Assembly: GCA_015655075.1 (NCBI GenBank)
Contig: JAATFT010000022.1
Span: forward strand, 1-64,000
Direction: 5' to 3'
From: Clostridiales bacterium
Lineage (GTDB): Bacteria > Bacillota > Clostridia > Lachnospirales > Lachnospiraceae
DNA: 64,000 nucleotides
Position 1 is the stretch's first letter. The number at the start of each line of letters is the position of its first letter. Below, one piece after another: positions 122-15,672 of this stretch. A model generated the notes under the pieces. The model was not told the DNA's origin. It was given only the letters and a program-made list of their open reading frames with translations, and ran no database searches. The translations under genes were made by a program, and so were the position numbers.

Positions 122-484
122 CTAGCTTTCCCGTGGGGGAATGAAGATACAGCGGAAATTTTGGAAGTTTTAGCTCTTCACAATATTAAGGTAACCTTTT
201 TTATGACTGGCGGCTGGGTGGAAAAATATCCTGACGATGTAAAAGCAATTGCCGCCGCAGGCCATGATCTGGGCAATCACAGTGAAAACCATAAGCATAT
301 GTCCCAGCTATCGAAGGAAGAGTGTAAGGAAGAAATTTTGAAGGCCCATAATAAAGTCAAGGAATTAACAGGGATAGAAATGAATCTGTTCCGTCCCCCT
401 TACGGCGATTACAATAATACCTTAATTGAAGCTGCAAATGAACTGGGTTATCATTGTATCCAGTGGGATGTGGATTCCCTGGAC
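122..484 (+). pseudogene. Polysaccharide deacetylase (PdaB-like), 5' part, interrupted
   Basis: This is the front of a NodB-type (carbohydrate esterase 4) deacetylase. Visible motifs are the metal-binding HSENH, the RPPYGD loop and WDVDSLD. The frame stops matching the family after base 484, where the mobile element begins, and runs only a few codons further to a stop at 503-505. The rest of the protein resumes in frame at 15427. The 5' end is also abnormal: an in-frame TAA lies at 92-94 and the expected TFD motif with the catalytic Asp reads LAFPWGNED. The only starts are weak (TTG at 161). The gene was therefore probably damaged at its 5' end as well as by the insertion. Such enzymes trim peptidoglycan or spore cortex, but activity here is doubtful. 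Confidence 0.8.
470..484 (+). repeat. Left junction core (attL-like direct repeat)
   Basis: GTGGATTCCCTGGAC is identical to 15427-15441 and in the same codon phase of the split gene. Serine integrases exchange at a 2-bp core within partly similar att sites, so the true crossover lies somewhere inside these 15 bp. Confidence 0.78.
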
Positions 485-498
485 GAAAAATGTATGCA

Positions 499-531
499 TG
501 TGTAAAGTCTTATAAAGCAAGGCTTTACACA
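499..531. terminator. Hairpin at the 3' end of the recombinase gene
   Basis: TGTGTAAAG (499-507) pairs with CTTTACACA (523-531) and overlaps the recombinase stop codon. The T-tract on the minus-strand transcript is weak, so termination is only probable. It could instead be part of the recombinase binding site at the left junction. Confidence 0.4.
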
Positions 532-2111
532 TAATATTCAATTTCAAGCTTATGCTCTTCATAAAAAGTAATGCTCTTAATAAGCGTATGGCACAAGATT
601 TTAAGTGTTTGAAAATCGCCGGATTCTATAATAAGGCTCATATCCTTTATTAACATCATCATATCATCTATATTATCTATAAAGCTACTATTTTTATATT
701 CCTCTAATTCCAGCTGGCTTATTTCAGCTCGTACAACTTTCTTATTTCCGTCCAATGATTCTATTTTCTCATTTATGTATTTGTTTGTAATAGTATTACC
801 AGAGGCAAGAGAATTTACCAGGTTATCTATCTCATTATCTATTTTTAAAATCTTCATTTCAAGGTCGTTTTTCTTCTGTAAATAGCCAGCGGATACTTTC
901 GGGTCAGTTTTGGCATTCGTAAGTTTTTCTAAAACATTTGGAGAAGAATAGTGTTCCTGCATATCAGAAAAAATGATAGCATTTGCTATCCGATGAGAAA
1001 TAGATGGCAGGGAGCACATGTTCTTTCCTCTGTTTTTCTTTGTGCTGCATATGTAATTTTTGTATCCCCTGTTATCACCGCTGGACGAAACGGAATAACC
1101 ACATATACCACATTTCATCAGTCCGGTAAAAGGCGAGTTAGTACCTGTTCCTAATCTTGCGGGATGATTCCTTATCTCCGCCTTACGATACTGAACCTTG
1201 ATATATGTATTACTATCAACAAGGGGCCGGTGAGGGCTAACGATAAAATATTGGTTATCAACACCTCTGCAGCGTTTGTGCTTAGAAGAATTTTTATTAA
1301 TTTTCCCAAATAAATTTACAGCCTTGGTTCCATCGAATTCCGATATGTCATTAACAAAATTAGCATTAAGCTTTTTGAAATAATTGTATATTTTTATATC
1401 ATTTGGAGCATACAAGGGTCGCCACAGAATATCAGACACAACTCTACTGGTCCACACTGGAGAACCGGTACTTCCACCCCGGGATGGTATCGTTAGCTCG
1501 TTCAGCTTATTAATAATAGCTGAAACAGATAAGTCTTCAAGATACCATTTATACATATTTTGGACTACAGAAGCCTCTGATTCATTGGGTTTGAGTATGG
1601 TATAACGTTTACCATCATCACCGATAACTTTGCATAGCTTGTATCCATAAGGGGCAGGTCCACCGCCCCAATGACCGAGTTTGGTACGCACATAGTAATT
1701 ATCCGTAACCCTTTCGATCGTTGTATCACGTTCTAACTGGGCAAATGTCATTATGATGTTTACCATGGCTCTTCCCAGAGGTGTAGAAGTATCAAAATTT
1801 TCAGTTGCGGATGCAAATTTAACATTGTACCGTTCCAGTTCTACGATAAGATTACTGAAATCCGCCATAGAGCGGCTTATTCTGTCAAGCCGATAACATA
1901 TTATCATATCCGTATTACCGGTTCTTACTTCGTGCAAAAGGGCGGTAAATCCAGGGCGTTTTAAATCCTTCCCGGAGTAACCGCTATCCTTAAACACTTC
2001 ATAATCCCAGCCGTTGTATGCACATAGGGCAATACATTTTTCTATCTGCCCTTCAATTGAAAGACTGTCTTTTTTGTATAAGGATTGTCTGGCATATAAT
2101 AATTTTTTCAT
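525..2111 (-). CDS. Large serine recombinase (integrase/excisionase of the element)
   Basis: The 528-aa protein has the large serine recombinase layout. A resolvase catalytic domain occupies about residues 1-145, with the nucleophile Ser10 in YARQS and the motif YRLDRISRS. A recombinase domain follows to about 290. A zinc ribbon with CGICGYSVSSSG and a second Cys pair lies near 335-370, and a coiled coil around 395-460. The length matches TndX and SpoIVCA-type enzymes. It is the first gene inside the left junction and reads toward it, as expected for the enzyme that moves this element. The start ATG follows AAGGAG about 8 bases upstream. The gene looks intact. Confidence 0.93.
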   Translation of the reverse strand: MKKLLYARQSLYKKDSLSIEGQIEKCIALCAYNGWDYEVFKDSGYSGKDLKRPGFTALLHEVRTGNTDMIICYRLDRISRSMADFSNLIVELERYNVKFASATENFDTSTPLGRAMVNIIMTFAQLERDTTIERVTDNYYVRTKLGHWGGGPAPYGYKLCKVIGDDGKRYTILKPNESEASVVQNMYKWYLEDLSVSAIINKLNELTIPSRGGSTGSPVWTSRVVSDILWRPLYAPNDIKIYNYFKKLNANFVNDISEFDGTKAVNLFGKINKNSSKHKRCRGVDNQYFIVSPHRPLVDSNTYIKVQYRKAEIRNHPARLGTGTNSPFTGLMKCGICGYSVSSSGDNRGYKNYICSTKKNRGKNMCSLPSISHRIANAIIFSDMQEHYSSPNVLEKLTNAKTDPKVSAGYLQKKNDLEMKILKIDNEIDNLVNSLASGNTITNKYINEKIESLDGNKKVVRAEISQLELEEYKNSSFIDNIDDMMMLIKDMSLIIESGDFQTLKILCHTLIKSITFYEEHKLEIEYYV

Positions 2112-2242
2112 TTATAACTCCTTTATTAAATATTATTAAAAAAGGGTATAAAAAATACACCCCATGTATTGTGGATTTTTGTAAAGTGTGTTATAATATG
2201 CTTGCGAGGGCAATATTATAACACGGGTTATTCTATTGTCAG

Positions 2243-2276
2243 AACCGTTCCTGTTTGCAGCAGGGGCGGTTTTTTA
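2243..2276 (+). terminator. Intrinsic terminator
   Basis: AACCGTTCCTG (2243-2253) pairs with CAGGGGCGGTT (2261-2271), counting two G-T wobbles, and runs into six T residues. No intact plus-strand gene lies immediately upstream, so it probably belongs to a lost gene. Confidence 0.6.
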
Positions 2277-2286
2277 ATGTGTAAAA

Positions 2287-2415
2287 TTAGTATTCTTTAT
2301 AAATTTGTCCTCTATTGCCGGCATCTATAATGCAAATGATAAGTTCGCCATTATCAATCGTATAAATAATTCGATAATCTCCAACCCTAAGTTGTACCCG
2401 ACGTAAGATAGATAC
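2287..2415 (-). pseudogene. RelE/ParE-family toxin, C-terminal remnant
   Basis: The minus strand reads about 42 residues including RVQLRVGDYRIIYTIDNGE and ending in NRGQIYKEY before a TAA. This is the characteristic last beta-sheet and tail of RelE/ParE toxins (usual length 85-95 aa). An in-frame stop at 2416-2418 removes everything upstream, and no antitoxin gene is adjacent. It is too short to act as an mRNA interferase or gyrase poison. Confidence 0.7.
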
Positions 2416-2437
2416 CTACGGTATATCACCACATATA

Positions 2438-2668
2438 TTGATGAAACATAGAAGTACCATTTTTACAATCCGAAAGATACACGAAGATGAGACGGGGCAA
2501 TATGCCCTTAGAATGTATGGTAACTGCAAGACCTATAACATTCTGACAAGGAAATATGAACCGTACGAAAGTGAATTTTACTTAGCTTATTGGAATCCAA
2601 AAATATTTATAAGATTAAAGGAGAATGAATATGGTAAAGGTAATTGGAAAAGAAGATTCTTTAAATGA
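2438..2668 (+). CDS. Small hypothetical protein, probably a remnant
   Basis: An open frame of 76 aa contains ETGQYALRMYG and SEFYLAYWNP, rich in aromatic residues. No good ribosome binding site precedes TTG 2438 or ATG 2441, and the frame overlaps the next gene, which has a good site, by more than 30 bases. The family was not recognised. It may be the tail of a phage-type ORF. Confidence 0.3.
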   Translation: MMKHRSTIFTIRKIHEDETGQYALRMYGNCKTYNILTRKYEPYESEFYLAYWNPKIFIRLKENEYGKGNWKRRFFK

Positions 2669-2869
2669 GATTTTCAAAGCAGCAGAAATTAACAGTGATT
2701 TTATAGAGGCAACTTACGGAGAAGGAATTGTCATTATACAACCGAAACACCTGCAATGTATACAGTGTGGATGCAACAATGAATCGAAGCTAATAAAAGC
2801 GGAGTTCTTGTGTGCACCCATTGTATCAATGAATTGCAAGATTTTGTAAGCAGAACGAAAAACTTATAA
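2631..2869 (+). pseudogene. Small zinc-ribbon protein with a frameshift
   Basis: ATG 2631 follows AAAGGAG with 7-bp spacing, a better start than ATG 2625. The frame reads MVKVIGKEDSLNEIFKAAE and then the knuckle CIQCGCNNES. Near 2805 the frame is lost: the original frame runs to 2849 without a second Cys pair, whereas the +1 frame gives VCTHCINELQDFVSRTKNL and a stop at 2869. Together they make the expected C-x2-C...C-x2-C ribbon, so one base has probably been lost in the GCGGAG tract. Similar C-terminal ribbons occur in AbrB-like proteins of clostridial phages, but the N-terminal part was not recognised. Confidence 0.55.
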
Positions 2870-2929
2870 TTGCTATTTAACGCAAGTTGTACAACCAGTA
2901 ACACATAAACTAGTACCGGAGGTGGTTAC

Positions 2930-3097
2930 GTGGAATATAAAAACATAACAGTACACGAAATAAACGGTTATACGGTAACATCTAAGACCTGCGTATTAAC
3001 TCCTGAAGAAGAGGAAGAGAGACTATCTAAAATTAAAACAGCTCTATGTAATCTATATAGGTCAGCGTATAAGAAACAACAGGATGAAACCGCTTAG
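2930..3097 (+). CDS. Small acidic/basic phage-type protein (55 aa)
   Basis: GTG 2930 is preceded by the strong site GGAGGTGG. The product reads VEYKNITVHEINGYTVTSKT and then an acidic LTPEEEEE helix and a basic end, stopping at TAG 3097. Short proteins of this style are common between structural genes in clostridial prophages and conjugative elements. No function is known to me. Confidence 0.55.
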   Translation: MEYKNITVHEINGYTVTSKTCVLTPEEEEERLSKIKTALCNLYRSAYKKQQDETA

Positions 3098-3123
3098 GCG
3101 GTTAATAAAGGAGGGACAAGCCT

Positions 3124-3225
3124 ATGAAGCAGAAACATAAGTCCCGCCTGCAGGCCTTCCTGGTCGTAACAGGATTCTTGGCCTTTATGTTTGTTTACGG
3201 CAGAATGGGAGCCTCCTGGGATTAA
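3124..3225 (+). CDS. Single-pass membrane peptide (33 aa)
   Basis: ATG 3124 follows AAAGGAGGGACAAG. The product has a basic start (MKQKHKSRLQ), one hydrophobic segment (AFLVVTGFLAFMFVYG) and a short polar end. It starts 26 bp after the previous small ORF. The good ribosome binding site argues that it is or was translated. The function is unknown. Confidence 0.45.
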   Translation: MKQKHKSRLQAFLVVTGFLAFMFVYGRMGASWD

Positions 3226-3666
3226 GGGGAAGGATACTTACCTAGAAAAAATCAGGAGAAAGTACAACCCGGATGGCAATGAGTATGAAATTAAAGACAT
3301 CGTTCGATACACATATATGTCAAGTTCATTGGATTTATCAGAAAAGACCTTAAAAGCTGTTGATACTCACAGTAAAATGGGCTATAATACAATTGAGGTA
3401 GAAAACTACTGGCTAAATGAAATGAATCCGTAAACGGTATCAATACAATTGTGCAAGCTCCATCTGGTCAAAAATTTGAGCTCCGGTATCATACACCTGA
3501 AAGCTTCGAACTTAAAAACGGCAAAATGCATGATCTGTATGAAAAACAAAGAGTAATTAGTGACACTTCAAGTAAAGAGTATATGGAATTGACCGATCAG
3601 ATGTTTGATTTATCTGATTCGTTAGAAGTTCCTGTTAATATCAAAGGGGTGAAAATAAGTGAATGA
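3226..3666 (+). pseudogene. Phage head-morphogenesis protein, C-terminal remnant with frameshift
   Basis: Two adjoining frames give one recognisable tail. The first ends in EVENYWLNEMNP at a stop at 3431-3433. The second continues GINTIVQAPSGQKFELRYHT and then HTPESFELKNGKMHDLYEKQ to a stop at 3664-3666. These motifs occur at the C-terminus of phage minor head proteins of the SPP1 gp7/Mu F type, often as a toxin-like extension. The N-terminal head domain is absent and the two parts are out of frame, so this is a relic. Confidence 0.5.
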
Positions 3667-3838
3667 ATCGATAAGATATCTTAAATTGACAGATTATGGC
3701 AACCGCGGTACGATAATAAAGCAGGAAGGCAGAAAGTTTTATGGTTATGAAAATGGTTTCTGGAAAAGAAGGGGATTGTCTGTAGGATATTTTTATCCAG
3801 ATGCTCCAGAGTTTGAATGCTACGAGGTAATATTCTGA
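3659..3838 (+). CDS. Small hypothetical protein (59 aa), overlaps the head remnant
   Basis: GTG 3659 overlaps the end of the preceding remnant by 8 bases and has AGGGGTG about 8 bases upstream, the arrangement of translationally coupled phage genes. The product contains IRYLKLTDYGNRGTIIKQEG and many aromatic residues, and ends in FECYEVIF. The family was not recognised; its place after a head protein suggests a phage structural-cluster gene. Confidence 0.5.
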   Translation: MNESIRYLKLTDYGNRGTIIKQEGRKFYGYENGFWKRRGLSVGYFYPDAPEFECYEVIF

Positions 3839-4005
3839 AGAGGAAGTCAATAAATTAATAGCAAGCATGTAATACCATCTATCATAACGGTAGGTGGTTT
3901 TATTATGTTTAATAGTTGGAAGGATGCATGAAAATATGCTTGCAAAACTAAAGTTTGTCTTGTAAAATATGGATATGTAATAAAATATTTTACAGGAGGA
4001 TAAGC

Positions 4006-4419
4006 ATGATAATAAAAAGCGCAGGTAAAACAGTTGAAGTAAGAGATAATATTATTTCTATCAAAGAGGGGATTACAAAAAAGCAAAAAACTATTCCTAT
4101 CAATAACGTAATTTCAGTTCAGATTAAAAAGCCAGGATTAATTATAGGCGGTTATCTTTACTTTCAGACAGTAGGTGGATTGGGCAATAGTAGTATGAAA
4201 ACAGTAAATGATTATATAAAAGATGAAAATACTGTTATTCTTAATTCAAAAAAGAAATATGAAGCGGCTTTGCAAATTAAGGAATATATTGAAAAAATGC
4301 AGGCTTCATCAAATAATGCTGGTGCAGATGAATTGATTAAGTATAAGCAATTACTTGATGACAGAGTTATCACGCAAGAAGAATTTGATTTGAAGAAAAA
4401 ACAATTATTTGGCCTGTAA
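4006..4419 (+). CDS. PH-like domain protein with SHOCT C-terminus
   Basis: ATG 4006 has ACAGGAGGA upstream; the frame opens earlier at 3955 but without a site. The 137-aa product has an N-terminal PH-like beta domain of the DUF4429 type (residues about 1-85, with TIPINNVISVQIKKPG). A linker helix follows. The tail, about 108-137, is a typical SHOCT motif: DELIKYKQLLDDRVITQEEF and a final KKKQLFGL. Such proteins are common in phages and mobile elements of Firmicutes. No membrane segment or catalytic motif is seen. Confidence 0.75.
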   Translation: MIIKSAGKTVEVRDNIISIKEGITKKQKTIPINNVISVQIKKPGLIIGGYLYFQTVGGLGNSSMKTVNDYIKDENTVILNSKKKYEAALQIKEYIEKMQASSNNAGADELIKYKQLLDDRVITQEEFDLKKKQLFGL

Positions 4420-4458
4420 AAAGTTTGAAAAACCTCTTGACAAGTGTTAACGTGTATG

Positions 4459-4647
4459 CATGCGATGGAGGTGAGGAAAATAAAAAATGTAGCATTTCAA
4501 ATTAGTGATGAGTTCCATACTGCAATAAAAATTCAGGCTACAAAAGAAGGCAAGACAATAAAAGATTATATTATTGAACTTATCAAAAAGGATTTGAATC
4601 AAAAAAATAGAGATTTGCTCTCCCTACCAAGAAGCACAAATCTCTAA
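4459..4647 (+). CDS. Ribbon-helix-helix DNA-binding protein (Arc/CopG-like)
   Basis: The product (62 aa from ATG 4459; GTG 4471 is also possible and sits directly after GGAG) contains IKNVAFQISDEFHTAIKIQA followed by KDYIIELIKKDL. This is the strand-helix-helix pattern of small plasmid or antitoxin repressors. A TTGACA box lies at 4437-4442 but no good -10 is at the right distance. No toxin gene is adjacent. It may have been an antitoxin or a copy-number regulator of a lost partner. Confidence 0.6.
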   Translation, partial: HAMEVRKIKNVAFQISDEFHTAIKIQATKEGKTIKDYIIELIKKDLNQKNRDLLSLPRSTNL

Positions 4648-4727
4648 ATCACCACGCCGAAGTGTTTTGATAAATATATTATATCATTCCTTCGGTGTTA
4701 AATCAATAAGATTGGAGGGATTTTATA

Positions 4728-4892
4728 ATGCAAAGCTTGGCAATAACAGAGGATAAAGGTATTCGAGTTTTAAGTACACAGCAATTAGCAGACGGCTACG
4801 AGACAGACAAGAAGATAATATCCAATAATTTTAACCGTAGCCTTACTTCATGCAAAATCTTTAAAGACAGAAAAAGCTTGGCAGGTGTATGA
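4728..4892 (+). pseudogene. ORF6N/antirepressor N-terminal remnant
   Basis: ATG 4728 follows GGAGGG. The 54-aa frame contains LSTQQLADGYETDKKIISNN, the start of the ORF6N DNA-binding domain of phage antirepressors, and ends at TGA 4890-4892. Full proteins are over 200 aa. The frame beyond the TGA reads straight into a phage scaffold protein, so two phage genes have been joined by deletion. Confidence 0.55.
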
Positions 4893-5423
4893 ATATTTAG
4901 TAGATTATTACTTCTGTTCCAAAGAGAAGATTTAGCAAAAGTTGATGGATTAACAGAAGCACAGATTAATACCATTGTCGCATTATCCGCAGAGGAATTA
5001 AAAGGCTTTATTCCTAAGACACGTTTTGACGAAGTGAATGAAACAAAGAAGGATCTGGAACAGCAGATAAAGGACCGCGATAAACAGCTGAAAGACCTTG
5101 GCGAGAAAGTTAAAGAGAACGAAGAAGCCGAGAAAACTATCAAACAGCTACAAGAGGACAACAAGAAAGTCAAAGACGATTACGAGGCTAAGCTGAAGGA
5201 CCTGACGATTAATACTGCAATTCAGTCCAAACTAACCGATACCAAGTATCCGGATCTGCTGGTCACAAAATTTGATAAGTCAAAGCTGGCAGTAGGTACA
5301 GTTGGAACAGTATCCGGTATTGATGAGCAGCTGACTGCAATTAAAGAAACTTACAAGGATTGCTTTCGTACCATATCACATTGTGAAGGTGATATTCAGT
5401 TCTTTATTATTTTGTCCACATAA
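4893..5423 (+). pseudogene. Phage scaffold protein (GP20-like), truncated at both ends
   Basis: In the same frame as the preceding remnant, the sequence encodes DLAKVDGLTEAQINTIVALS, then TRFDEVNETKKDLEQQIKDR and a long charged coiled coil, then KYPDLLVTKFDKSKL and LTAIKET. This is the order of the phage minor structural/scaffold protein GP20. No start codon with a ribosome binding site remains, and the expected C-terminus after LTAIKETYKD is replaced by unrelated residues. GP20 proteins scaffold capsid assembly; this copy is a relic. Confidence 0.65.
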
Positions 5424-5471
5424 CCAATTTATTACTGCCATTATATCTGTTACTAATTCATTCTTTTTCAT
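5376..5471 (-). CDS. Candidate 31-aa peptide, divergent from an XRE gene
   Basis: On the minus strand ATG 5471 has AAAGAGGATAGAG upstream and encodes MKKNELVTDIMAVINWLCGQ and a short tail, stopping at 5376. It points away from the XRE gene at 5643, which is a common arrangement for small immunity-region genes. The function is unknown and it may be a remnant. Confidence 0.35.
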   Translation of the reverse strand: MKKNELVTDIMAVINWLCGQNNKELNITFTM

Positions 5472-5580
5472 AATCTCTATCCTCTTTCAGTTCTTGTTTT
5501 CCTGTTCCTTATAATGTTATTATATCACTTTTAAAAGTGACTATCAGTGCTTTTTATAACTTTTCTAAGAAATATTTTTA

Positions 5581-5622
5581 TTGACTTTTGGCATCCTCTG
5601 TATTAGTATAACTATATTAGTA
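5581..5622 (+). promoter_or_regulatory. Promoter region with repeated TATTAGTA boxes
   Basis: TTGACT (5581-5586) is followed by AT-rich -10 candidates. TATTAGTA occurs at 5601-5608 and again at 5615-5622, 14 bp apart on the same strand. This suggests an operator for the XRE protein encoded 20 bp downstream. The exact -10 is ambiguous. Confidence 0.4.
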
Positions 5623-5642
5623 CACTTGTTGGGAGGCGCAAA

Positions 5643-5882
5643 ATGATTAAATATAAAATTAATATCGCGGATGCGCTGGATCGAATTGGATTTAATACCT
5701 ATAAGGCAAAGACAACCAAAATATTAAGCCAGGATACGCTAAAAAAGATTAAGAACGAAGATGCCAACATATCCCTGGACAGTCTTAACCGGATATGTAT
5801 TCTTCTTGACATGCAGCCAAAGGATTTGATAATATACGTAAAGGACGAAGAAGAACAGAAAAAATATTTTAAAAATATCTAA
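5643..5882 (+). CDS. XRE-family HTH regulator (Cro/YozG-like, 79 aa)
   Basis: ATG 5643 follows GGGAGGCG. The product is one helix-turn-helix domain: IADALDRIGFNTYKAKTT, then LSQDTLKKIKNEDANISLDS and LNRICILLDMQPKDLI, typical of the short Cro/C1 class. It probably regulates itself and the opposite small ORF through the repeats at 5601-5622. There is no sensor or oligomerisation domain. Confidence 0.8.
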   Translation: MIKYKINIADALDRIGFNTYKAKTTKILSQDTLKKIKNEDANISLDSLNRICILLDMQPKDLIIYVKDEEEQKKYFKNI

Positions 5883-5971
5883 AAACACTTGATTATAACT
5901 TCGAGAAGTGATGCAATAAAGACAGTTAAATAAGACAAGGTTTTAACAAGTAAAAATTTCGGAGGTAGAAT

Positions 5972-6169
5972 ATGTCAGATGCAGAAAAACTTGATTTAAT
6001 ACTTGAAAAGGTAACAGAATTTGAGAAGACGTTAAGGGATTTAAAACGACAGCAAATGAAAGACACGGCGGAACTAAAAGCAATGGATGGCATGATTCTC
6101 GATGAGGTTGAACGGGTGCATGAGTTATTAATTAGACGGACGGATGCCTTAGAAAAGAAGATAGGATAG
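5972..6169 (+). CDS. Small coiled-coil protein (65 aa)
   Basis: A strong GGAGGTAGAAT precedes ATG 5972. The product is almost entirely helical heptads (DLILEKVTEFEKTLRDLKRQ). Proteins of this kind are frequent in clostridial mobile elements, but no function can be assigned. It lies 89 bp after the XRE gene and before a strong hairpin. Confidence 0.6.
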   Translation: MSDAEKLDLILEKVTEFEKTLRDLKRQQMKDTAELKAMDGMILDEVERVHELLIRRTDALEKKIG

Positions 6170-6214
6170 AAAAAGAGCGGGCTTGGGGCAGTCCTTCGTA
6201 AAACAGTATATTCT

Positions 6215-6251
6215 GAAAGTGTGGCGTAGCGTAAGGCTACGCCACACTTTC
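6215..6251. terminator. Perfect 16-bp hairpin, bidirectional terminator
   Basis: GAAAGTGTGGCGTAGC (6215-6230) pairs perfectly with GCTACGCCACACTTTC (6236-6251) around a 5-base loop. It separates the plus-strand small genes from the minus-strand recombinase remnant and overlaps the end of the latter. Confidence 0.7.
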
Positions 6252-6602
6252 ATTTGCTGGTGTGTCCAGTTCCGGCAGGATTTCCACCAAATCATAACTG
6301 ATGTGAATATTCTGCTTGTGTTTTCCATCGGACTTATTCGGTGCTTCTACAAAGACCTTACACACAAAATCGTTTAAGATAATTGGTGTCAGTTCTGCTA
6401 AATCTGTGTACTGCTTGCATTTGAGGATAAACCGCTCTACATCTCCGGCGTGCTGTTCTTGTTCGGTCAATTCCGATTGCCACTGTTCCAGCTTACTTTG
6501 CAAGTCAGCCTGCTCCGCTTCATAATCGACGGATAATTCCTTAAAGCGAATATCATTGAGACGGCGGCTCTGAAAATCATAGCCGCCGTTTCTTTGGCGC
6601 AT
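6237..6602 (-). pseudogene. C-terminal fragment of a second serine recombinase (TndX/DUF4368 type)
   Basis: The 121-aa frame reads RRLNDIRFKELSVDYEAEQA, a coiled coil, VERFILKCKQYTDLAELTP and DFVCKVFVEAP. This is the helical DUF4368 tail of conjugative-transposon serine recombinases (full length about 540-560 aa). The catalytic and zinc-ribbon regions are absent. It is a footprint of an earlier element inside the present one. Confidence 0.75.
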
Positions 6603-6619
6603 GAAGATATGTCTGCTGT

Positions 6620-6647
6620 ACGACGGCTTTTTTTCTTTTGCCGTCGT
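6620..6647. terminator. Hairpin downstream of the FtsX-type permease gene
   Basis: ACGACGGC (6620-6627) pairs with GCCGTCGT (6640-6647) around a T-rich loop. It lies about 65 bp beyond the permease stop on the minus strand and may end that operon, although the T-tract is in the loop on the plus strand. Confidence 0.35.
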
Positions 6648-8522: not shown

Positions 8523-9202
8523 TCGCGGCACCTCCCTAAATCGGTCAATATGCCATCGGACACTTGCAGTATCCTGTCTGCGGTCTGTGCGATACTTCGG
8601 TTATGGGTAATCATAACAACAGTCTGCTCATACTTTCTTGCAGCTTCTTTTAGCAAAGTAATCACTTCACTGCTATTTTGCGTGTCCAGATTACCCGTCG
8701 GCTCGTCGGCAAGGATAAGCGACGGCCGCGTAATTAGCGCACGTCCTATTGCTACACGCTGTTGCTGACCACCTGATAATTGACTGGGTAAATGGTGGCG
8801 GCGTTCTTTCAAATTAAGCACCGTAAGTAGTTCCTCAAGATACTTTTTATCGGGCTTTTGATAATCAAGCAGTACGGGAAATATGATGTTTTGCTCAACA
8901 TTCAATTCTGGAATTAGATTAAAACTCTGAAAAATAAATCCAATATTTCTGCGCCGAAAAATTGTCAAGCTGCTGTCTTTCATGGAAAAAATATCTTTAC
9001 CGTCCATAAATACCTTGCCGGAAGTGGGCGTATCAAGCGCACCTACCATATTCAGAAGTGTACTCTTGCCGGAGCCGGATTCTCCGACTATTGCGACAAA
9101 TTCACCTTTCGGAACGGAAAAGCTGATATCTTTTAATGCATGTACGGCGGCTTCACCGCTGCCATAGGTTTTAGAAATTGATTTAACTTCCAATAAATTC
9201 AT
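8519..9202 (-). CDS. ABC transporter ATP-binding protein (LolD/MacB/BceA-like)
   Basis: The 227-aa ATPase is intact, with Walker [10 protein letters not shown]-loop near [11 protein letters not shown], signature LSGGQQQR, Walker B LILADEP and the H-loop in [12 protein letters not shown]. It belongs to the subfamily that pairs with FtsX-like permeases. The permease start overlaps its stop (ATGA). About 70 bp separates it from the upstream kinase gene. Confidence 0.92.
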
Positions 9203-9271
9203 AGGTTATCCTCTTTCTGTCTTGATATTGAAAGATTATCATGTCAATCTTACTGTTATATGACACTCGCC

Positions 9272-10309
9272 CTACAATTTTGTAGGAATTAAAAAATTGA
9301 TTGTAAAAGTAGTGCCAATACCCAATTCGCTGTCAACCTCGATTGTTCCGCTGTGTGCTTCAACAATAGCTTTCGCAAGCGGTAACCCAAGTCCGATACC
9401 TTGCGTGTCTTTAGAAAAACGACTGCGATAAAATCTTTTGAAAATATGGTGTAAATCCTCTGGGTGAATACCGCCTCCGCTGTCTTTTATGATGACTTGA
9501 ATAACAGACGCAAATTGTTTCCATTCAATATGAATAGCATTTCCTTTTTGCGTATGGTCAAAAGCGTTTTTAACAATATTACTGATTGCTTCAATCAGCC
9601 AATTACGGTCACATAATAAAGTAACGTCATCATCGCCAGACAGATATATTTCCTTTTCCTCCTGCTTGGCACGAAATGAAAAGTGCTTTTCTATACTGCC
9701 CATCAATTCAGATACATTTTCTACAGCTTTCTCAATCATGATTGTTCCGGCATCGAGTTTTGTAATTTTCAAGAGGTTTTGCACCAGTGTTTCTATTCTG
9801 TCAAGCTCCTGCTCTGAAAAAACAGTAAACTCCTTGATTGTCGGTAAATTCTTTGCTTCTTCTTGCATAATGCCATTATAGATATTAAGGGCAGCAAGCG
9901 GAGTTTTTAACTGGTGGGAAATATCGGAAATGGTATCTTTCAAATTTTTTTTTGCTTTCCCCTCATTTTCAGCGTGGGCATTCAAAATAGAAACTAAGGA
10001 ATTTACTTCATGAAATAGTCTGTATAGCTCGCCTTCATCATCACATTCAATACGTGCATTTTGATTTCCAGAAATATATTCTTTGATTTGCGTTACCGCA
10101 TTTTCCATGATTATATTTTGTTCCTTGAAATACCTATAACCTATTGCCAATATCGAGATACTCATGCACAAGGAACATACCAATATACACAATGCTGCAT
10201 TTTCAAATTTCAAACCTATGAAAGCAGCAGAAATCAAGGTAAATGCTACTATAAGCAGTAATACCAAACGAAAAAGTTTTTTGATTTTCCTGTTTACCAG
10301 TATTTTCAT
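9272..10309 (-). CDS. Sensor histidine kinase (VncS-like)
   Basis: The 345-aa product has two N-terminal membrane helices separated by a very short loop (LFRLVLLLIVAFTLISAAFI and a second near residue 45), followed by HAMP-like and HisKA regions. The phosphoacceptor His is in DISHQLKTPLAAL. The ATPase domain has N-box SNIVKNAFDH, G1 DSGGGI and G2 GIGLGLPLAKAI. ATG 10309 overlaps the response regulator stop by 4 bases. The lack of a large extracellular domain suggests that it senses through the membrane or through the partner transporter, as in intramembrane-sensing kinases. Confidence 0.9.
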   Translation of the reverse strand: MKILVNRKIKKLFRLVLLLIVAFTLISAAFIGLKFENAALCILVCSLCMSISILAIGYRYFKEQNIIMENAVTQIKEYISGNQNARIECDDEGELYRLFHEVNSLVSILNAHAENEGKAKKNLKDTISDISHQLKTPLAALNIYNGIMQEEAKNLPTIKEFTVFSEQELDRIETLVQNLLKITKLDAGTIMIEKAVENVSELMGSIEKHFSFRAKQEEKEIYLSGDDDVTLLCDRNWLIEAISNIVKNAFDHTQKGNAIHIEWKQFASVIQVIIKDSGGGIHPEDLHHIFKRFYRSRFSKDTQGIGLGLPLAKAIVEAHSGTIEVDSELGIGTTFTINFLIPTKL

Positions 10310-11004
10310 CGTACACCCCAATCAACGGTATTCCATTTATACCCCATACGCCGAACCGTCACTATTTTTTGAGGTTCGCCCGGATCGTCCTCGATTTTTG
10401 TACGCAGTCTGCGTATATATACGGTAAGAGTATTGTTATCTATATAGTTTTCGTTACAATCCCATAGTTTGCTTAAAATCTGTTCCGACGAAAGAACAAT
10501 ATTGGGATTTTCCATAAACAGGCATAACAATTTGTACTCACTTGCTGTTAAGTCAAGTTGTTTTCCATTTTTATAGACTTCTCCTTTTAGCAGTTGTACG
10601 TTTATGCCATTAGAATTTAATTCAGTATCTGTTTGATTAAAATTGTCACTTCTGCGAAGCAAAGCATTTATTCTCGACATAAACACCGCCAGTTTGAACG
10701 GCTTTGTTATGTAATCATCGCCGCCAATATCAAGCCCCATTATGATATCCGTTTCTTCATCAGCAGCAGTAAGAAACATAATCGGCACCTTTGATGTTTT
10801 ACGAATTTTTTTGCATAAATCATAGCCGGAGCCATCGGGAAGCGACACGTCCAAAATCACCAAATCATATTTCCCATTTGTCCATAGTGCTTCTGCTTCA
10901 AGACTTGTACGGGCAACATCTATTTCATATCCTTGCTTTTTGATAGCAAAAGATAAACCACTAATTAAACTCAAATCATCTTCAACAAAGAAAATATGTT
11001 TCAT
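10306..11004 (-). CDS. OmpR/PhoB-family response regulator (VncR-like)
   Basis: The 232-aa protein has a receiver domain with the acidic pair FVEDD, phosphorylation site LVILDVSLPDG and the conserved Lys in DDYITKPFK. A C-terminal winged helix follows (LTASEYKLLCLFMENPNIVL and LTVYIRRLRTKI). Its start overlaps the stop of the small HTH gene, and its end overlaps the kinase start, both by 4 bases. It likely controls the ABC transporter encoded downstream. Confidence 0.92.
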   Translation of the reverse strand: MKHIFFVEDDLSLISGLSFAIKKQGYEIDVARTSLEAEALWTNGKYDLVILDVSLPDGSGYDLCKKIRKTSKVPIMFLTAADEETDIIMGLDIGGDDYITKPFKLAVFMSRINALLRRSDNFNQTDTELNSNGINVQLLKGEVYKNGKQLDLTASEYKLLCLFMENPNIVLSSEQILSKLWDCNENYIDNNTLTVYIRRLRTKIEDDPGEPQKIVTVRRMGYKWNTVDWGVR

Positions 11005-11195
11005 TTGTTTTCACCGTCCTTCATTTTTCTGCGTGTATGTCGTCCGTCAACGGGCTTCTCCGCGTCTTTTGGTATCAGCCACATACGGCTAAACCATATC
11101 ACACCGGGTATGCGGTTTCCTTCGCAAAGTTTTTGTACGCGCCGTTCTGAAATTCCCCATTTTTTCGCGGCTTCGGGGGCAGAAATGTAATCCAT
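11001..11195 (-). CDS. Excisionase-like HTH protein (64 aa)
   Basis: ATG 11195 has AAAGGA 9 bases upstream. The product reads MDYISAPEAAKKWGISERRV, then QKLCEGNRIPGVIWFSRMW and DAEKPVDGR, a winged-helix MerR/Xis-like fold often called a DNA-binding helix-turn-helix protein in clostridial mobile elements. It heads the RR-HK-ABC operon with an ATGA overlap to the regulator, so it is probably co-transcribed. It may act as an excision or transcription factor. A decayed relative lies at 15948-16111. Confidence 0.75.
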   Translation of the reverse strand: MDYISAPEAAKKWGISERRVQKLCEGNRIPGVIWFSRMWLIPKDAEKPVDGRHTRRKMKDGENK

Positions 11196-11201
11196 AATCA
11201 C

Positions 11202-11512
11202 CCGTCCTTTCTTTGGTGTACCACTTTATATTATATACGGCAGACCGAATAATAACAAGGACATTTATGATTTACTTAAGTCAATTAAATGATATGTGTA
11301 CTCATATCGAAAACATCAGCTATGCCAAGCCGTCACGGTAAGGTGGCGGCTCCTTTTTCAATAGAAACGAAAGACATAGATACATAAAGAGCCCTCCAAT
11401 TACAAAACTGCCATTGCAAGGCTTTTTATCTAAGAAATGCTATTGCTTTATAGAATGGCAGTTGTATTATAGTTTTATAGCAAATCAATGAGCAGTGTTT
11501 AGGAGCATATTT
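11202..11512. other. Intergenic spacer with two inverted repeats, no gene seen
   Basis: The spacer separates two minus-strand units. It holds a terminator-like hairpin (11328-11358), an inverted repeat AACTGCCATT/AATGGCAGTT (11406-11415 and 11454-11463), and a 24-codon plus-strand frame from 11267 that I do not regard as a supported gene. Confidence 0.4.
11328..11358 (+). terminator. Intrinsic terminator-like hairpin
   Basis: AGCCGTCAC (11328-11336) pairs with GTGGCGGCT (11343-11351) with one mismatch and is followed by CCTTTTTC. It reads on the plus strand and has no intact upstream plus-strand gene. Confidence 0.5.
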
Positions 11513-12226
11513 TTAAACATCAGCATATCGAAATGTTTTCAATGCCAGTAGCAATGCGACGATTGCCACTAATAATACAAGCCCTGTATTTATTAAGTAA
11601 CTGGCCCATGCTAAGTCAAATGCGCTACGCAAGGCATTGACAAACCACTGGAAAGGGTTAAATCGGTTGATGATTTGAATAAATTCAGGGGTATTGTTCA
11701 GAGAGTAGAAAGCACTGCTGCTCAACAAAAGCGGCATAGTGATGATGTTTGTCAGCATACTTACATTGTTTTCTGTCCGGCTCAGACTGGCTATGAAAAA
11801 GCTAAAGAAAACATAGCTGAGTGCAGCAAAGATAAGGACAGGAATCACTGCGAGAAAAGATTGAACGGGAACGCTCAGTTTGAGTGCAAATATTCCTGAC
11901 AGTATTACAAGCATTGCACACAGAAAAGAAATCGAAGTCCATGCCCCTGACATGCTGCATACATACTTCCAAAGGGGCATAGGCGTTACCCGCAGCAGGT
12001 TATATACACCTCTCCGGCGTTGTGTCAATATGGCAAAAGATGTAGTTGTAAATGCATAGAACAAAATACTGATAGCCATCACCGTTAATATGCGTTCGGG
12101 ATATTCCGGGGATTTTATAAAGATTCCCAAACCAATCGAGCCTCCCATTGGCAGGATAATCGACCATAATAGCAAAAAGGGATCTCGGCTTGCCGATTTG
12201 AATGTAAGGCTAAATATTGTTTTCAT
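11513..12226 (-). CDS. ABC-2 type transporter permease
   Basis: The 237-aa membrane protein has six predicted membrane segments. Examples are ILTVMAISILFYAFTTTSFA near residue 50 and a final LVLLVAIVALLLALKTF. The ABC-2 signature region RRRGVYNLLRVTPMPLWKYV is present. It shares a few bases with the end of the upstream ATPase reading frame. Such pairs export drugs, lipids or peptides. Because the partner ATPase gene carries a nonsense codon, this permease may be orphaned. Confidence 0.85.
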   Translation of the reverse strand: MKTIFSLTFKSASRDPFLLLWSIILPMGGSIGLGIFIKSPEYPERILTVMAISILFYAFTTTSFAILTQRRRGVYNLLRVTPMPLWKYVCSMSGAWTSISFLCAMLVILSGIFALKLSVPVQSFLAVIPVLIFAALSYVFFSFFIASLSRTENNVSMLTNIITMPLLLSSSAFYSLNNTPEFIQIINRFNPFQWFVNALRSAFDLAWASYLINTGLVLLVAIVALLLALKTFRYADV

Positions 12227-12956
12227 TTGATTCCCTCCCTGCTTGTGTGTTGTCGGTCAATTCAAGATATAAACTTTCAAGATTTTCCGCGTGATATTGT
12301 TGTAAAAGGCTCTCCGGCTGACCTTGTGCAACAATTTGCCCCTCGTGCATTAGAATAATGCGGTCAGCTATACGGGATACTTCTTCCATGTCATGCGACG
12401 AAAAGAGAACGGTTACCTCATTTTCTGCCAGTCATTGAATCATATTTCTTACTTTGTGTCGGGCGCGTGGGTCAAGCCCCGCCGCTGGCTCGTCAAGTAT
12501 AATAAAATCCGGATTGTGTAGGGTAGTAACAGCAATTGCAAGCCTTTTCTGTTGTCCGCCAGATAGGCGCGATGCAAGCGTTTTTCTTGCTTCCTGTAAA
12601 TTGCATTCCTCCAATTTTCTCTGGATTTGCTGTTTATCAACCTTTACGTTGTAAAGCGCCGCAAACAGCCGCAAATTTTCTTCGGCAGTATAACCTTCAA
12701 AAAAAGGAGTAGATTGCAGTTGAACGCCTATATGCGCCCGAAAATCCTCCCTCCAGCGCGTGATTGTTCCGGCATCCGGCTGTAATATCCCTAAGAGCAT
12801 TGCCAGTGTGGTTGATTTTCCGGCTCCATTTGTTCCAATCAGCGCGAGAATTTCCCCTTGTTTGATTTCTACATCAATGCCTCTTACAACTTCGCGGTTA
12901 TGAAATTGTTTGCGTATGCTTTTAGTTTCCATAAAAATCATTCTCAAAATCTCCAT
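12210..12956 (-). pseudogene. ABC-2 transporter ATPase interrupted by an in-frame TGA
   Basis: From ATG 12956 the frame encodes Walker A IGTNGAGKST, signature LSGGQQKR and Walker B FIILDEPAAGLDPRARHKV, and then meets TGA at 12432-12434 after MIQ. The same frame continues beyond the stop with LAENEVTVLFSSHDMEEVSR, containing the H-loop His, and the normal C-terminus to a TAG at 12210. A single substitution has therefore split a gene of about 248 codons. The 174-aa truncated product lacks the H-loop and is unlikely to hydrolyse ATP normally. Confidence 0.85.
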
Positions 12957-12972
12957 CTTAGTTTATGTTGTT

Positions 12973-12988
12973 TATTCAATGTTGAGTA
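12973..12988. promoter_or_regulatory. Probable PadR operator in front of the ABC ATPase gene
   Basis: TATTCAATGTTGAGTA is a near-palindrome and, apart from one base, is the reverse complement of the site at 13585-13600 in front of padR. Both sites lie 17 bases upstream of the start codon of the gene they precede. PadR proteins usually bind such dyads in their own promoter and at a transporter gene. Confidence 0.65.
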
Positions 12989-13001
12989 TTGGCGTTATTT
13001 T

Positions 13002-13025
13002 TTCTCCCTCTATTATGAGGGAGAA
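13002..13025. other. Hairpin after the padR-like gene
   Basis: TTCTCCCTC (13002-13010) pairs perfectly with GAGGGAGAA (13017-13025). It lies just past the padR stop on the minus strand, but the T-tract is on the other strand, so it may be an mRNA stabiliser or weak terminator between padR and the ABC genes. Confidence 0.4.
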
Positions 13026-13028
13026 TTT

Positions 13029-13568
13029 TTAGTGTTCTGTGTCCAAAAGTGCCAAAGCCTTGTCAACAAAATCCTGTTGCTGTTTTATTATAGAAAACAT
13101 ATTATCCATTATCAGCATAACCATAGGGGGAATTTTATGGTTCATGGCTGCGTCTTTTGCTTTAAAGCCTTGCTTTACTGCGTCATATTCATCCTTTAGA
13201 GCGTTTCGTTGCTGTTCAAGAGCTTTCCGGCATTCATCCACTGATAGCTTTTCATAAAATGATAAACCGGAATATAACGTTGAGGGATAAAGTACGGAAG
13301 AAACTTTTAATGCATCCTTGATGAGCGTCTGGAGATAAGTTCTCCCAACTCCCGTAATAGAGTAAACAGCCTTTTGACGGTGTCCTGTCTGTTCTATGCT
13401 TGTAACTGCAACATAACCCTCTTGCTCCATTTTTTTTAACGCATGGTAGATAGAGCCAATCAACACACCGCCCCAACGTTCCGCATCCGTCATTTGCAAT
13501 GCCTGCTGAATATCATAGCCGGACATTGGCTGAACATCTAACATTCCAAGTACAAGTAGTCGTGTCAA
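13029..13568 (-). CDS. PadR-family transcriptional regulator
   Basis: The 179-aa protein has the PadR winged helix at residues 1-80 (LGMLDVQPMSGYDIQQALQM, IGSIYHALKKMEQEGYV and a beta wing with HRQKAVYSIT) and a C-terminal helical dimerisation domain. It is encoded directly upstream of the ABC ATPase and permease on the same strand. PadR repressors of this class release an exporter operon when a toxic ligand binds. Twin dyads at 13585-13600 and 12973-12988 are its probable operators. Confidence 0.88.
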   Translation of the reverse strand: MTRLLVLGMLDVQPMSGYDIQQALQMTDAERWGGVLIGSIYHALKKMEQEGYVAVTSIEQTGHRQKAVYSITGVGRTYLQTLIKDALKVSSVLYPSTLYSGLSFYEKLSVDECRKALEQQRNALKDEYDAVKQGFKAKDAAMNHKIPPMVMLIMDNMFSIIKQQQDFVDKALALLDTEH

Positions 13569-13584
13569 TCCATTTCACCTCACT

Positions 13585-13600
13585 TACTCAACGTTGAATA
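13585..13600. promoter_or_regulatory. Probable PadR autoregulatory operator
   Basis: TACTCAACGTTGAATA contains the perfect core TCAACGTTGA and lies 17 bases upstream of the padR-like start. It matches the reverse complement of the site in front of the ABC ATPase at 15 of 16 positions. Confidence 0.68.
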
Positions 13601-13651
13601 TTATATCATTGATTAAATGGGTTTGTCAAGGTCGTGGTAGAGCATGAAGTG

Positions 13652-13692
13652 AAAACAAGCGTATTGTTCAAAATAAACAATACGTTTGTTTT
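13652..13692. terminator. Strong hairpin in the spacer between padR and the zinc-ribbon genes
   Basis: AAAACAAGCGTATTGTT (13652-13668) pairs with AACAATACGTTTGTTTT (13676-13692) with one mismatch. It could end transcription arriving from the zinc-ribbon operon. Confidence 0.5.
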
Positions 13693-13881
13693 CTAGACAT
13701 GTTACTTGGCAGTGCCCATAAACAGTTTAATGTTTATACTTTCTTATTACGGACTGCCTTGCCACCGCTCCTTTTGCTTGTAGCAGAATAAAATAAAAAA
13801 TCCCCGGTGGCTGACCGGAGTGCGTTTTAATATAATTTATAAAAATTAAGATATAATAAAGCAGAAATATTGAGGAAGTAA

Positions 13882-13915
13882 GGAACCGTTGCCACAGAGG
13901 GGACGGTTCCTTTTT
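13882..13915 (+). terminator. Intrinsic terminator-like hairpin
   Basis: GGAACCGT (13882-13889) pairs with ACGGTTCC (13903-13910) and is followed by five T residues. It lies downstream of the zinc-ribbon operon and reads on the opposite strand. Nothing else was recognised between 13693 and 13938. Confidence 0.5.
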
Positions 13916-13938
13916 CTAATGAAGAGCCAGACTTAAAT

Positions 13939-14793
13939 TTATTCGGTAGATTCCAGCTCGGCCATGTCAGCCTCAACCTTTTTCTTGATTTCTTTATCGG
14001 TTAGCCCCGCCTTAACAAGTAGTGTTCCTCTATTTTCAGCTATATTTACTAAAGCGTCTTTAGCCCTCTGTATATATTCCTGGGCTTTTGATAAATCACT
14101 TGTTTTGCCTGAATCAATATATTTTATTAACTTTTCAGCAGCTTGCTGATCAGATAATGCTACCAATTCAAATGCACTTAAATAAGTTTTTTCTTCATCT
14201 GTAGTCCCGTAATCATACGAGGTTGATGCATTGGCAAAATAGTCTTTAGCATCAGCACATACGTTATAAAAATCAAGGCTATTGGCTTGGTTATCAGAAT
14301 AAGCCGATATACTTTTCATGAAGTTGTTGTGGGAATTATAAAGGATTTTAAAATCTTCCCATGTTTGCTCATCAAATTTCAAAAGAGCAGTCCGAGTATC
14401 TTCAGCATCCTTGCTATTACCATCAGCTTTCTTAGAATCACCTTTGCTGGAAACTGCCCCGGATGTATCGGTACTTGATGGTACGGGATGATTATAAACG
14501 TATGCAAACATAAATACAAAAAACATAGTCACAAGTATCTTTGCAAAATTATTCCACTTAGAATTTTTCCACATAAAATATATACCTACAGGGAAAAATA
14601 GTATGAGCATGAATACTATAAATCCGGAACGTTCAGTTAATTTATTTTTTACTTTTTTATCACTAGAAAATTTTGAATAATCAATGCGCACATTTTCCGA
14701 AGTATCAGTTATTGAGTTGTCGCTTATTGTTGGTGTTCCACAATCAGGGCAGAAATTTCCTTCATATTCTCTCCCACATTTTCTACAAAACAT
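13939..14793 (-). CDS. Zinc-ribbon membrane protein
   Basis: ATG 14793 has AGGGAGGG upstream; the longer frame from 14835 overlaps the previous gene. The 284-aa product starts with a zinc ribbon (MFCRKCGREYEGNFCPDCG). It then has a Ser/Asn-rich linker, two close membrane segments near residues 60-105 (FIVFMLILFFPVGIYFMW and ILVTMFFVFMFAYVY) and an extracytoplasmic helical domain of about 160 residues. The topology suggests a cytoplasmic ribbon tethered to an external sensor-like domain. No enzyme motif is seen. It forms an operon with the next zinc-ribbon gene. Confidence 0.7.
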   Translation of the reverse strand: MFCRKCGREYEGNFCPDCGTPTISDNSITDTSENVRIDYSKFSSDKKVKNKLTERSGFIVFMLILFFPVGIYFMWKNSKWNNFAKILVTMFFVFMFAYVYNHPVPSSTDTSGAVSSKGDSKKADGNSKDAEDTRTALLKFDEQTWEDFKILYNSHNNFMKSISAYSDNQANSLDFYNVCADAKDYFANASTSYDYGTTDEEKTYLSAFELVALSDQQAAEKLIKYIDSGKTSDLSKAQEYIQRAKDALVNIAENRGTLLVKAGLTDKEIKKKVEADMAELESTE

Positions 14794-14812
14794 CTGTGTT
14801 ACCCTCCCTTGA

Positions 14813-15319
14813 TTATACTTTAAATTGTTTTCCACAATTTAAGCAAGTTACTTTTACCTTCTTCGCACCAATATTACCGGCCATTAAACCTAATGGACCT
14901 AAAGCCCATGCTCCTACAACGGCTTTACCTATACCAAATCCCTTTTTATTACCCGATAAAGACGTTGACCCACAATATGGACATCTTGTCATGGATTCGT
15001 ATTGTTTCTGCTGTAATTCTAACTGCTGTTGTTGTGCTTGCAATGTCATGGCTTGAAGTTTTAACTGAGCTTCCTGTAATGAAAAATCTGACTCATTTTG
15101 TAAATTAAGACTGTTTTTGGTTTGAACGATATTATCCGCATGTATCGGCGAACCGCAATTCGTGCAAAAATTATCTTCACTATTAATTGAGTATCCGCAT
15201 TTATTACATGAAGAACCATTTAGAGATACAACTGACATTTCTTCGGTGATTTTAACTCCGCAATGAATACAATAAAAACTGTCATCTGGTATATCTTTAA
15301 AGCAATTTGGACATATCAT
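14813..15319 (-). CDS. Soluble protein with three zinc ribbons
   Basis: The 168-aa product has an N-terminal ribbon (MICPNCFKDIPDDSFYCIHC), a second (CNKCGYSINSEDNFCTNCG) and a Gln-rich helix (LQAQQQQLELQQKQYESM is close to the visible pattern). A C-terminal ribbon spans CPYCGSTSLSGNKKG to TCLNCGKQF around a glycine-rich hydrophobic loop. AGGAGG precedes the start. It is the first gene inside the right junction and the promoter-proximal partner of the membrane zinc-ribbon gene. The function is unknown. Confidence 0.7.
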   Translation of the reverse strand: MICPNCFKDIPDDSFYCIHCGVKITEEMSVVSLNGSSCNKCGYSINSEDNFCTNCGSPIHADNIVQTKNSLNLQNESDFSLQEAQLKLQAMTLQAQQQQLELQQKQYESMTRCPYCGSTSLSGNKKGFGIGKAVVGAWALGPLGLMAGNIGAKKVKVTCLNCGKQFKV

Positions 15320-15381
15320 ATATATCCCTCCTATGTATTTATACTGATAGTATGGGATTCGTCACCTATTTTGTCAATATA

Positions 15382-15417
15382 AAAAAGAAAGATACTCATG
15401 CAATTTTCTTTCTTTTT
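15382..15417. terminator. Hairpin at the right end of the element
   Basis: AAAAAGAAAG (15382-15391) pairs with CTTTCTTTTT (15408-15417), 10 bp before the right junction core. It may insulate the element from the host gene or belong to the recombinase site. Confidence 0.4.
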
Positions 15418-15420
15418 GCG

Positions 15421-15672
15421 TCCAGAGTGGATTCCCTGGACTGGAAAGATTACGGTGTGGATTCCATAATTGATATGGTAGTAAATAATAAACATTTGGG
15501 AAGCGGCTCCATCATCCTGTGCCATAACGGTGCAAAATATACCAAGGATGCCCTGGAGGCAATGATTGAAGGTTTACAGAATAAGGGCTATAAAATTGTA
15601 CCCGTCTCCCAATTAATCTATACCGGAGACTATTATATGGATCATGAGGGAAGGCAGTTTGAGAAAAAGTAA
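15421..15672 (+). pseudogene. Polysaccharide deacetylase, 3' part
   Basis: From the junction core at 15427 the frame reads VDSLDWKDYGVDSIIDMVV, then SIILCHNGAKYTKDALEAMI and SQLIYTGDYY, and stops at 15672. This supplies the missing C-terminal third, including the LCHNGA motif that in NodB-type deacetylases carries a catalytic or metal-adjacent His. The part before 15427 belongs to the element. It is in phase with 122-484, so precise recombination would fuse the halves. Confidence 0.85.
15427..15441 (+). repeat. Right junction core (attR-like direct repeat)
   Basis: This is the second copy of GTGGATTCCCTGGAC, identical to 470-484. Confidence 0.78.

Follow-up and report, generated by a model that had tools for sequence, protein, structure and literature searches.

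Is a gene that has been cut by mobile DNA lost, or are its pieces kept to be re-joined at spore formation? This question is raised by positions 1-64,000 of contig JAATFT010000022.1 (GCA_015655075.1), the 64-kb stretch that was analysed and is referred to here as the window. Its source genome is labelled G000, and the other G-, L-, C-, f- and g-labels are anonymous labels for genomes, loci, contigs and groups in the analysis. An earlier note on this DNA had proposed that a serine-recombinase element of about 15 kb splits a PdaB-type deacetylase gene in frame, by analogy with skin in sigK and SPbeta in spsM. We confirmed that such an element splits a PdaB-like deacetylase gene at the motif DVD|SLDW (site 2), and the same gene appears to be cut again at the motif DAA|WGNED (site 1). 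It is probable, at roughly 0.72, that the 15-kb segment is an element like skin that is excised in development, with a new gene as its target.

The window contains exactly two copies of the 15-mer GTGGATTCCCTGGAC, one at 470-484 (attL core) and one at 15427-15441 (attR core), both on the + strand, where the number of matches expected with two or fewer mismatches is 0.04. The two copies bound an intervening element of 14.94 kb (485-15426), as had been proposed. Each copy is in phase with its own reading frame, and an in-silico join at one copy reads IQWDVDSLDWKDYGVDSIID / IQWDVDSLDWKDYG and stays open as far as the stop codon at 15672; the shared phase and the restored frame described earlier were thus both borne out. 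The note had also proposed looking for the uninterrupted gene in related genomes, and it was found in G001 of the same genus with one copy of the repeat, GTGGATTCCCTGGAT, matching at 14 of 15 positions. The 15 bp are probably composite, made up of a short crossover core and about 10 bp where the element arm matches the host side, because the stretch common to both ends is much shorter in related elements (read by eye). The left arm GGACGAAAAA (481-490, + strand) is the inverted partner, by eye, of the right arm TTTTTGCGTCC (15413-15423, + strand), and related elements have GATACAAAAGTAAAG / CTTTACTTTTGTATC-like arms (by eye).

Just inside the left end, where the note had placed it, lies a recombinase gene of 528 aa (525-2111, - strand) with its C-terminus towards the left junction. 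Its Resolvase (PF00239), Recombinase (PF07508) and zinc-ribbon (PF13408) domains are all above cut-off, and with three domains and a length within about 450-550 aa it belongs to the large serine recombinase (LSR) class. S9, which we take to be the catalytic serine, and other N-terminal residues are invariant across nine aligned site-2 LSRs. The window LSR is intact and shares 46% identity with its counterpart at this site in G190.

As judged from the sequence, the G000 gene is in three pieces. The 3' piece (15427-15672, + strand) was matched in 31 of 41 genomes searched, G000 included, with 84% identity in G001, and by itself matches PF04748 below cut-off. The middle piece (134-484, + strand) has 93% identity over 108 aa to G001, and the open reading frame (ORF) at 161-505 matches the polysaccharide deacetylase family PF01522 at 5e-32. 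Same-genus orthologs read KVALSFDAAWGNEDT where the window reads LAFPWGNEDT, and the window is non-homologous upstream of the site-1 core TGGGGGAA, whose right-junction copy is at 134-141 (+ strand). Contig C66 carries the missing 5' part, which ends at the same TGGGGGAA octamer, which there forms the left junction. This 5' part and the comparison with G008 and G010 define the split at site 1, and together with site 2 they give the three pieces. Positions 1-133 have no homology to intact orthologs and look like the right end of a putative second element at DAA|WGNED. They were also considered as a frameshifted 5' end of the deacetylase; comparison with G001, G008 and G010 led us to reject this and to favour a second element. 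The split gene of the earlier note thus stood with regard to the 15-kb element, but the note had overlooked the second insertion, by which the gene is broken twice.

The G001 ortholog scored 222.1 bits against PdaB (TIGR02764), below the curated cut-off of 237.4 but still best among 10 families. PdaB is therefore kept as the best-scoring family but not as an assignment at the curated cut-off, so we call the gene PdaB-like, and on this resemblance we take it as a sporulation gene. No other copy was found in the 79%-complete G000 genome, in which the nearest paralog scores as PdaA. G000 carries genes for Spo0A (Spo0A_C, 157.7 bits) and SigK (308.6 bits; cut-off 298.65; uninterrupted open frame of 224 aa), from which it is predicted to be able to sporulate.

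At site 1, two single-contig genomes of the same genus, G008 and G010, carry a split at this very position, with the 5' part and the remainder about 92 and 15 kb apart. Their LSRs are of a different type and have 75% mutual identity; between site-2 and site-1 LSRs, identity is 25-28% in the three pairs compared. The right arm ATCTAGC[T/A]TTCCC is common to G000, G008 and G010. Site 1 of G000 presumably holds an LSR element too, of which the ends alone are in the bin and the body is absent. By reading of alignments, site 1 is cut in 18 genomes including G000, and also in other loci such as L250 of Parablautia muri D42-62, where an LSR adjoins the split. Eight genomes (G000, G055, G395, G040, G614, G692, G534 and G560) and the single-contig locus L234 look broken at both sites, and G471, G646 and G283 likely are. 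A separate 5' piece ending at site 1 was found in G000, G055, G395, G283 and L234; for the other double splits, site 1 is judged from the right junction. A third insertion point in the same gene was seen in G302 and probably L237, and the LSR is more distant there (L049, L237). At L210 (3-1643 and 1922), a site-2 3' half stands beside an LSR 27-32% identical to the families of five queries; this LSR cannot be placed clearly in either main type, and L210 departs from the pattern of two families. Positions 78-120 and 25350-25392 carry a dispersed, imperfect repeat that spans at most about 43 bp (around CCACCGCTTCTTAG), and it has 18 further genome matches, including the second window site and several partial ones.

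Interruption of this gene is not restricted to G000. A survey with the 3' 81 aa as query matched 164 of 397 genomes of the family Lachnospiraceae and 216 of 392 genomes of the order, G000 being counted in both. The 150 matches listed per survey are places rather than genomes, and some of them are contig edges or extra copies. Among these listed places, the open frame is no longer than 137 aa in 14 (family) and 46 (order), and it has 138-242 aa in 13 and 15, respectively; intact frames have about 250-330 aa. Within the genus, eight of ten other matching genomes are uninterrupted at both sites, among them G002, which is intact with an extra 3' copy; the exceptions are G008 and G010, split at site 1. 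Twenty regions from the family survey and 40 from the order survey were fetched for inspection. Six of the 40 order regions (L095, L105, L115, L116, L128, L129) contain a complete site-2 split with an LSR inside, and L037 is a further such case. LSRs nearest the site-2 queries were counted by hand in chosen loci of 41 genomes, G000 included. Of 35 genomes that are split or suspected of it, 29 possess a separate piece from the 5' or middle part of the gene, and six have paralog-level matches only. Site-2 elements range from about 2.25 to 48 kb (18 cases with both ends on one contig; coordinates and open-frame numbers were transcribed by hand). A script sorted 79 loci by motif patterns into site-1 and site-2 split classes; its class is wrong for L191 and L196 (called site-1 split) and for L229 and L244 (called site-2 split), which look intact by frame length. 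The same gene has been hit repeatedly at two motifs, mostly by two LSR types.

Another arrangement at the locus is a gene-sparing island (L014, L017, L038; genomes G002, G036, G130), where the gene is intact and one or several additional 3' ends, which begin at the site-2 core, lie 2-9 kb beyond it. These copies match the gene's own end at 297/300 nt in G002 and 264/270 nt in G036, and less closely in G130 (203/234 and 202/234 nt). No LSR match was found between the gene and the extra 3' ends in these three genomes. On one reading, such islands may bring a replacement 3' end.

The split pieces can stay well preserved. Re-joining at site 2 in silico, at the alignment-defined codon rather than a proven crossover point, gave one open frame in 37 of 38 valid pairs; 40 pairs were listed, of which G498 was omitted and G280 was invalid because a neighbouring paralog had been used, and in the doubly split genomes (n = 10) the middle and 3' pieces alone were joined. 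Selection could be measured in three species of genus g372 (G451, G480 and G687), which share, in the parts that were fetched, an orthologous 15.5-kb element. Its cargo is of host type (RND pump, M20 peptidase, chromate transporters, HAD), with orthologous pairs 75-98% identical in amino acids and the LSR 69-78%. The dN/dS values (NG86; dS is saturated in many pairs) were 0.023, 0.044 and 0.039 for the 5' halves and 0.013, 0.008 and 0.005 for the 3' halves, with pS of 0.52-0.63. Both halves are under strong purifying selection in these three congeners. G520 has part of the same cargo, and the LSRs of G451, G480, G687, G520 and G606 are at the same end in the same orientation. In G620 and G535, an LSR and an Amidase_3 gene occupy 2.6-2.8 kb, with dN/dS of 0.09-0.12. 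In family f17, LSR identity and host-gene identity are correlated over 20 genomes (Mantel r 0.70, p 0.0001). Of 137 distinct middle pieces, a sample enriched for split genes rather than a survey, 76 are intact on both sides; the 61 not so classed contain two with a stop codon, one of which (L108) is an unsplit gene. The protein at 12249-12746 of L127 adjoins the LSR, has no Pfam match above cut-off and is better conserved among congeners than the LSR; it is possibly a directionality factor or unrelated cargo.

Contig breaks give a further clue. C66 ends exactly 141 nt after the first base of the site-1 core, and the window contig starts exactly 141 nt before its last base; 141 and 127 are usual assembler k values. 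These symmetric breaks are what a k = 141 graph would produce if a junction of element end to element start, in a circle or a tandem, existed beside the integrated form, and they suggest such a junction. In G493, the contig with the 5' half stops at the site-2 core; its final 127 nt recur on another contig, which continues into the 3' half, as at an empty site. In G590, one contig joins the 5' half to the 3' half, and its last 141 nt are found again on the next contig, which begins at the core. In G283, a contig begins 141 nt ahead of the final base of the site-2 GGTGA. Contigs also end at the site-2 core in G448, G471 and G038 and at the site-1 core in G283 and G435. These coincidences point to alternative junctions in some assemblies, the window's site 1 among them.

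The region upstream of the gene offers a hint of when it may be read. A perfect sigma-E-like pattern, ATA-N15-18-CATANANT, was found in 21 of 104 upstream regions of orthologs (140 bp before a script-chosen start), where dinucleotide shuffles gave an expectation of 1.4; CATANANT alone was found in 45 of 104 (9.6 expected), and a distance of 26-32 nt to the start is frequent among the better matches. Patterns for sigma-K, G, F and A occurred 2, 4, 2 and 0 times, with 1.5, 3.4, 0.6 and 0.6 expected. The G000 copy, ATA-N16-AATATATT, is one mismatch off (by eye). B. subtilis spoVIE (pdaB) is a row of the sigma-E regulon in the table of a sporulation-mutant screen (PMC4703394).

The analogy to skin and SPbeta drawn in the earlier note has therefore gained support from relatives with a single uninterrupted gene, from many split genes with open halves, conserved where measurable, from the sigma-E-like promoter and the sigma-E listing of pdaB, and from the alternative junctions. 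Such breaks are common in relatives and their pieces can persist in good condition, which makes it probable that the gene is re-joined at spore formation. The course of events may be as follows: With the LSR-borne 15-kb element integrated at DVD|SLDW and a second, putative element at DAA|WGNED of the same gene, the gene could not be read through in growing cells. During sporulation, each recombinase with a directionality factor would excise its own element from the terminal mother-cell chromosome. The cores would then re-join in frame, the deacetylase would be made under a sigma-E-type promoter, and the spore chromosome would keep both elements. The timing of excision to sporulation, excision at site 2 in G000 and the existence of a directionality factor are parts of this scheme that we infer. 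A wider proposal, for which we would give somewhat less than an even chance, is that the PdaB-like locus serves as a permanent developmental switch with two gates. Its two conserved motifs would have been colonised again and again by LSR elements of two unrelated families, some elements would have been domesticated into vertically inherited, LSR-tended islands with ordinary host genes, and both elements would have to leave the gene in the mother cell, as in an AND gate, for the enzyme to be made.

Several observations weigh against developmental excision. At site 2 of the window the assembly is continuous through both junctions, with no sign of excision of the 15-kb element. Neither site-1 141-mer recurs whole in the bin, where no second copy of the element ends was found and the body is also absent, and the 141-nt breaks might also reflect a tandem copy, or a second copy that the bin lacks. 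Pfam scans of some ORFs, with no search aimed at it, identified no directionality factor. Perfect sigma-E-like promoters precede 3 of 31 LSRs (two being the same gene; 0.2 expected), with a weak excess at one mismatch or less (19 of 31; 7.2 expected), and none of four site-1 LSRs has such a promoter. In G560 (L110, L156, L169), the middle and 3' pieces lie on different strands, some 20 kb from each other, and the gene could therefore not be restored by simple excision; LSRs of both types are nearby, and the arrangement is an inversion rather than a simple insertion. Some lineages look decayed, for example G643, a complete genome that gave the single broken join, with a 1.5-kb insert without LSR match and the core lost. 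In G590, a stop takes the place of the W in the site-1 motif, and G646 has a middle piece with a stop, in a weak alignment. Mean violations of highly conserved columns in the middle pieces, computed without taxonomy correction, were 1.22 (site 1), 0.93 (site 2), 0.73 (both) and 0.20 (intact). Finally, four same-genus genomes have no match to the gene, so it may be dispensable in some lineages.

The last of these points would suit an insertion sink, in which LSR elements or prophages land on two conserved motifs of a dispensable gene, the split gene is lost and excision is ordinary prophage excision. The congeners without a match, the decay in G643 and the more frequent violation of conserved columns in split pieces all fit it, as does the mixed, partly fragmentary cargo of the window. 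Distant LSR relatives (28-42% identity) also occur on predicted viral contigs at no fewer than 79 loci, in one of the 79 listed with the LSR adjoining the 3' half; an exact attP search in the viral contigs gave 0 matches. However, a lost gene should not show dN/dS of 0.005-0.044 in halves split by a common orthologous element, nor would so few stops be found in the 61 middle pieces not classed as intact, and the islands of G002, G036 and G130 leave an intact gene beside the extra 3' ends. We regard the sink as unlikely. A reversible on/off switch at the population level, akin to active lysogeny and unrelated to sporulation, would account for alternative junctions in assemblies that are not known to come from sporulating cells, but the sigma-E-like promoter and the resemblance to PdaB point to the mother cell, where loss is terminal, and we give this explanation little credence. 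That the pieces are translated separately and then assemble is very improbable: although they are open and, where measured, conserved, the sequences flanking the halves differ between elements, no common start region precedes the 3' half beyond the arm (by eye), and the conserved motifs of one enzyme are distributed over different pieces.

Excision at sporulation, which we prefer, has precedents. Targets of intervening elements named in the literature searched are sigK, spsM, spoVFB, spoVR, gerE and yabG (PMC5595907, PMC10747680, PMC4191935). Like the 15-kb element, skin in sigK of B. subtilis and C. difficile is a prophage-like LSR segment that splits a mother-cell sporulation gene, but its target is sigK, which is unsplit in G000, and its excision and the directionality factor CD1234 have been demonstrated; in C. 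difficile the LSR is constitutive, and it is a directionality factor of the mother cell that limits excision (PMC5025042). SPbeta in spsM, vfbin in spoVFB and vrin in spoVR are likewise elements in mother-cell sporulation genes, but their targets differ, and the available parts of the two papers mention no second element in the same gene (PMC4191935, PMC10747680). The gin element in gerE of B. cereus is without phage genes and has serine recombinases and a 9-bp core, but it has three recombinases in one element at one site (PMC5595907). For yin in yabG of C. botulinum, integrated and excised states occur together in one culture; it is reported from no strain or species besides the one described, whereas PdaB-like insertions recur across the order (PMC10747680). 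Several elements per gene are known from the heterocyst interruption elements (nifD among others), where this holds for 10 of 87 genes and one gene can have as many as four, but these belong to cyanobacteria and heterocysts and use serine and tyrosine recombinases (PMC4874684). In the literature searched we found no paper on a PdaB-like deacetylase gene as the target of an intervening element.

If developmental excision holds, the gene would be a new, widespread target among the few rearranged sporulation genes and, within the literature searched, the first sporulation gene known to be interrupted by two separate elements. The repeated insertions across the order, which includes many gut commensals, would provide natural replicates for studying tolerance of mobile DNA, domestication of elements and the gating of spores by rearrangement. 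Vertically inherited elements with host-type cargo and a faster-evolving recombinase would be an unusual state, and the many matched recombinases and crossover sites would be a resource for recombinase biology.

The remaining content of the 15-kb element is mixed. A phage scaffolding protein fragment (5034-5423, + strand; PF06810, 1.2e-25, positions 40-149 of 170) is followed by a short ORF with DUF4368 (6237-6602, - strand; PF14287, 5e-18); DUF4368 is located at recombinase C-termini, and the ORF is probably the end of another recombinase. The cargo on the - strand comprises an FtsX permease, an ABC ATPase, a histidine kinase and a response regulator (6711-11004), then an ABC-2 permease, part of an ABC ATPase and a PadR regulator (11513-13568). 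A double zinc-ribbon protein (14813-15319, - strand) and a second ORF with sub-threshold zinc-ribbon similarity (13939-14835, - strand) lie towards the right end. To the right of the element, ORF fragments at 16708-17443 and 17573-17682 match Cas4, Cas1 and Cas2 (Cas2 just below cut-off) and are followed by two CRISPR-like repeat copies 66 nt apart; this looks like a decayed CRISPR-Cas remnant. A cobalamin riboswitch (90 bits) is located at 28869-29106.

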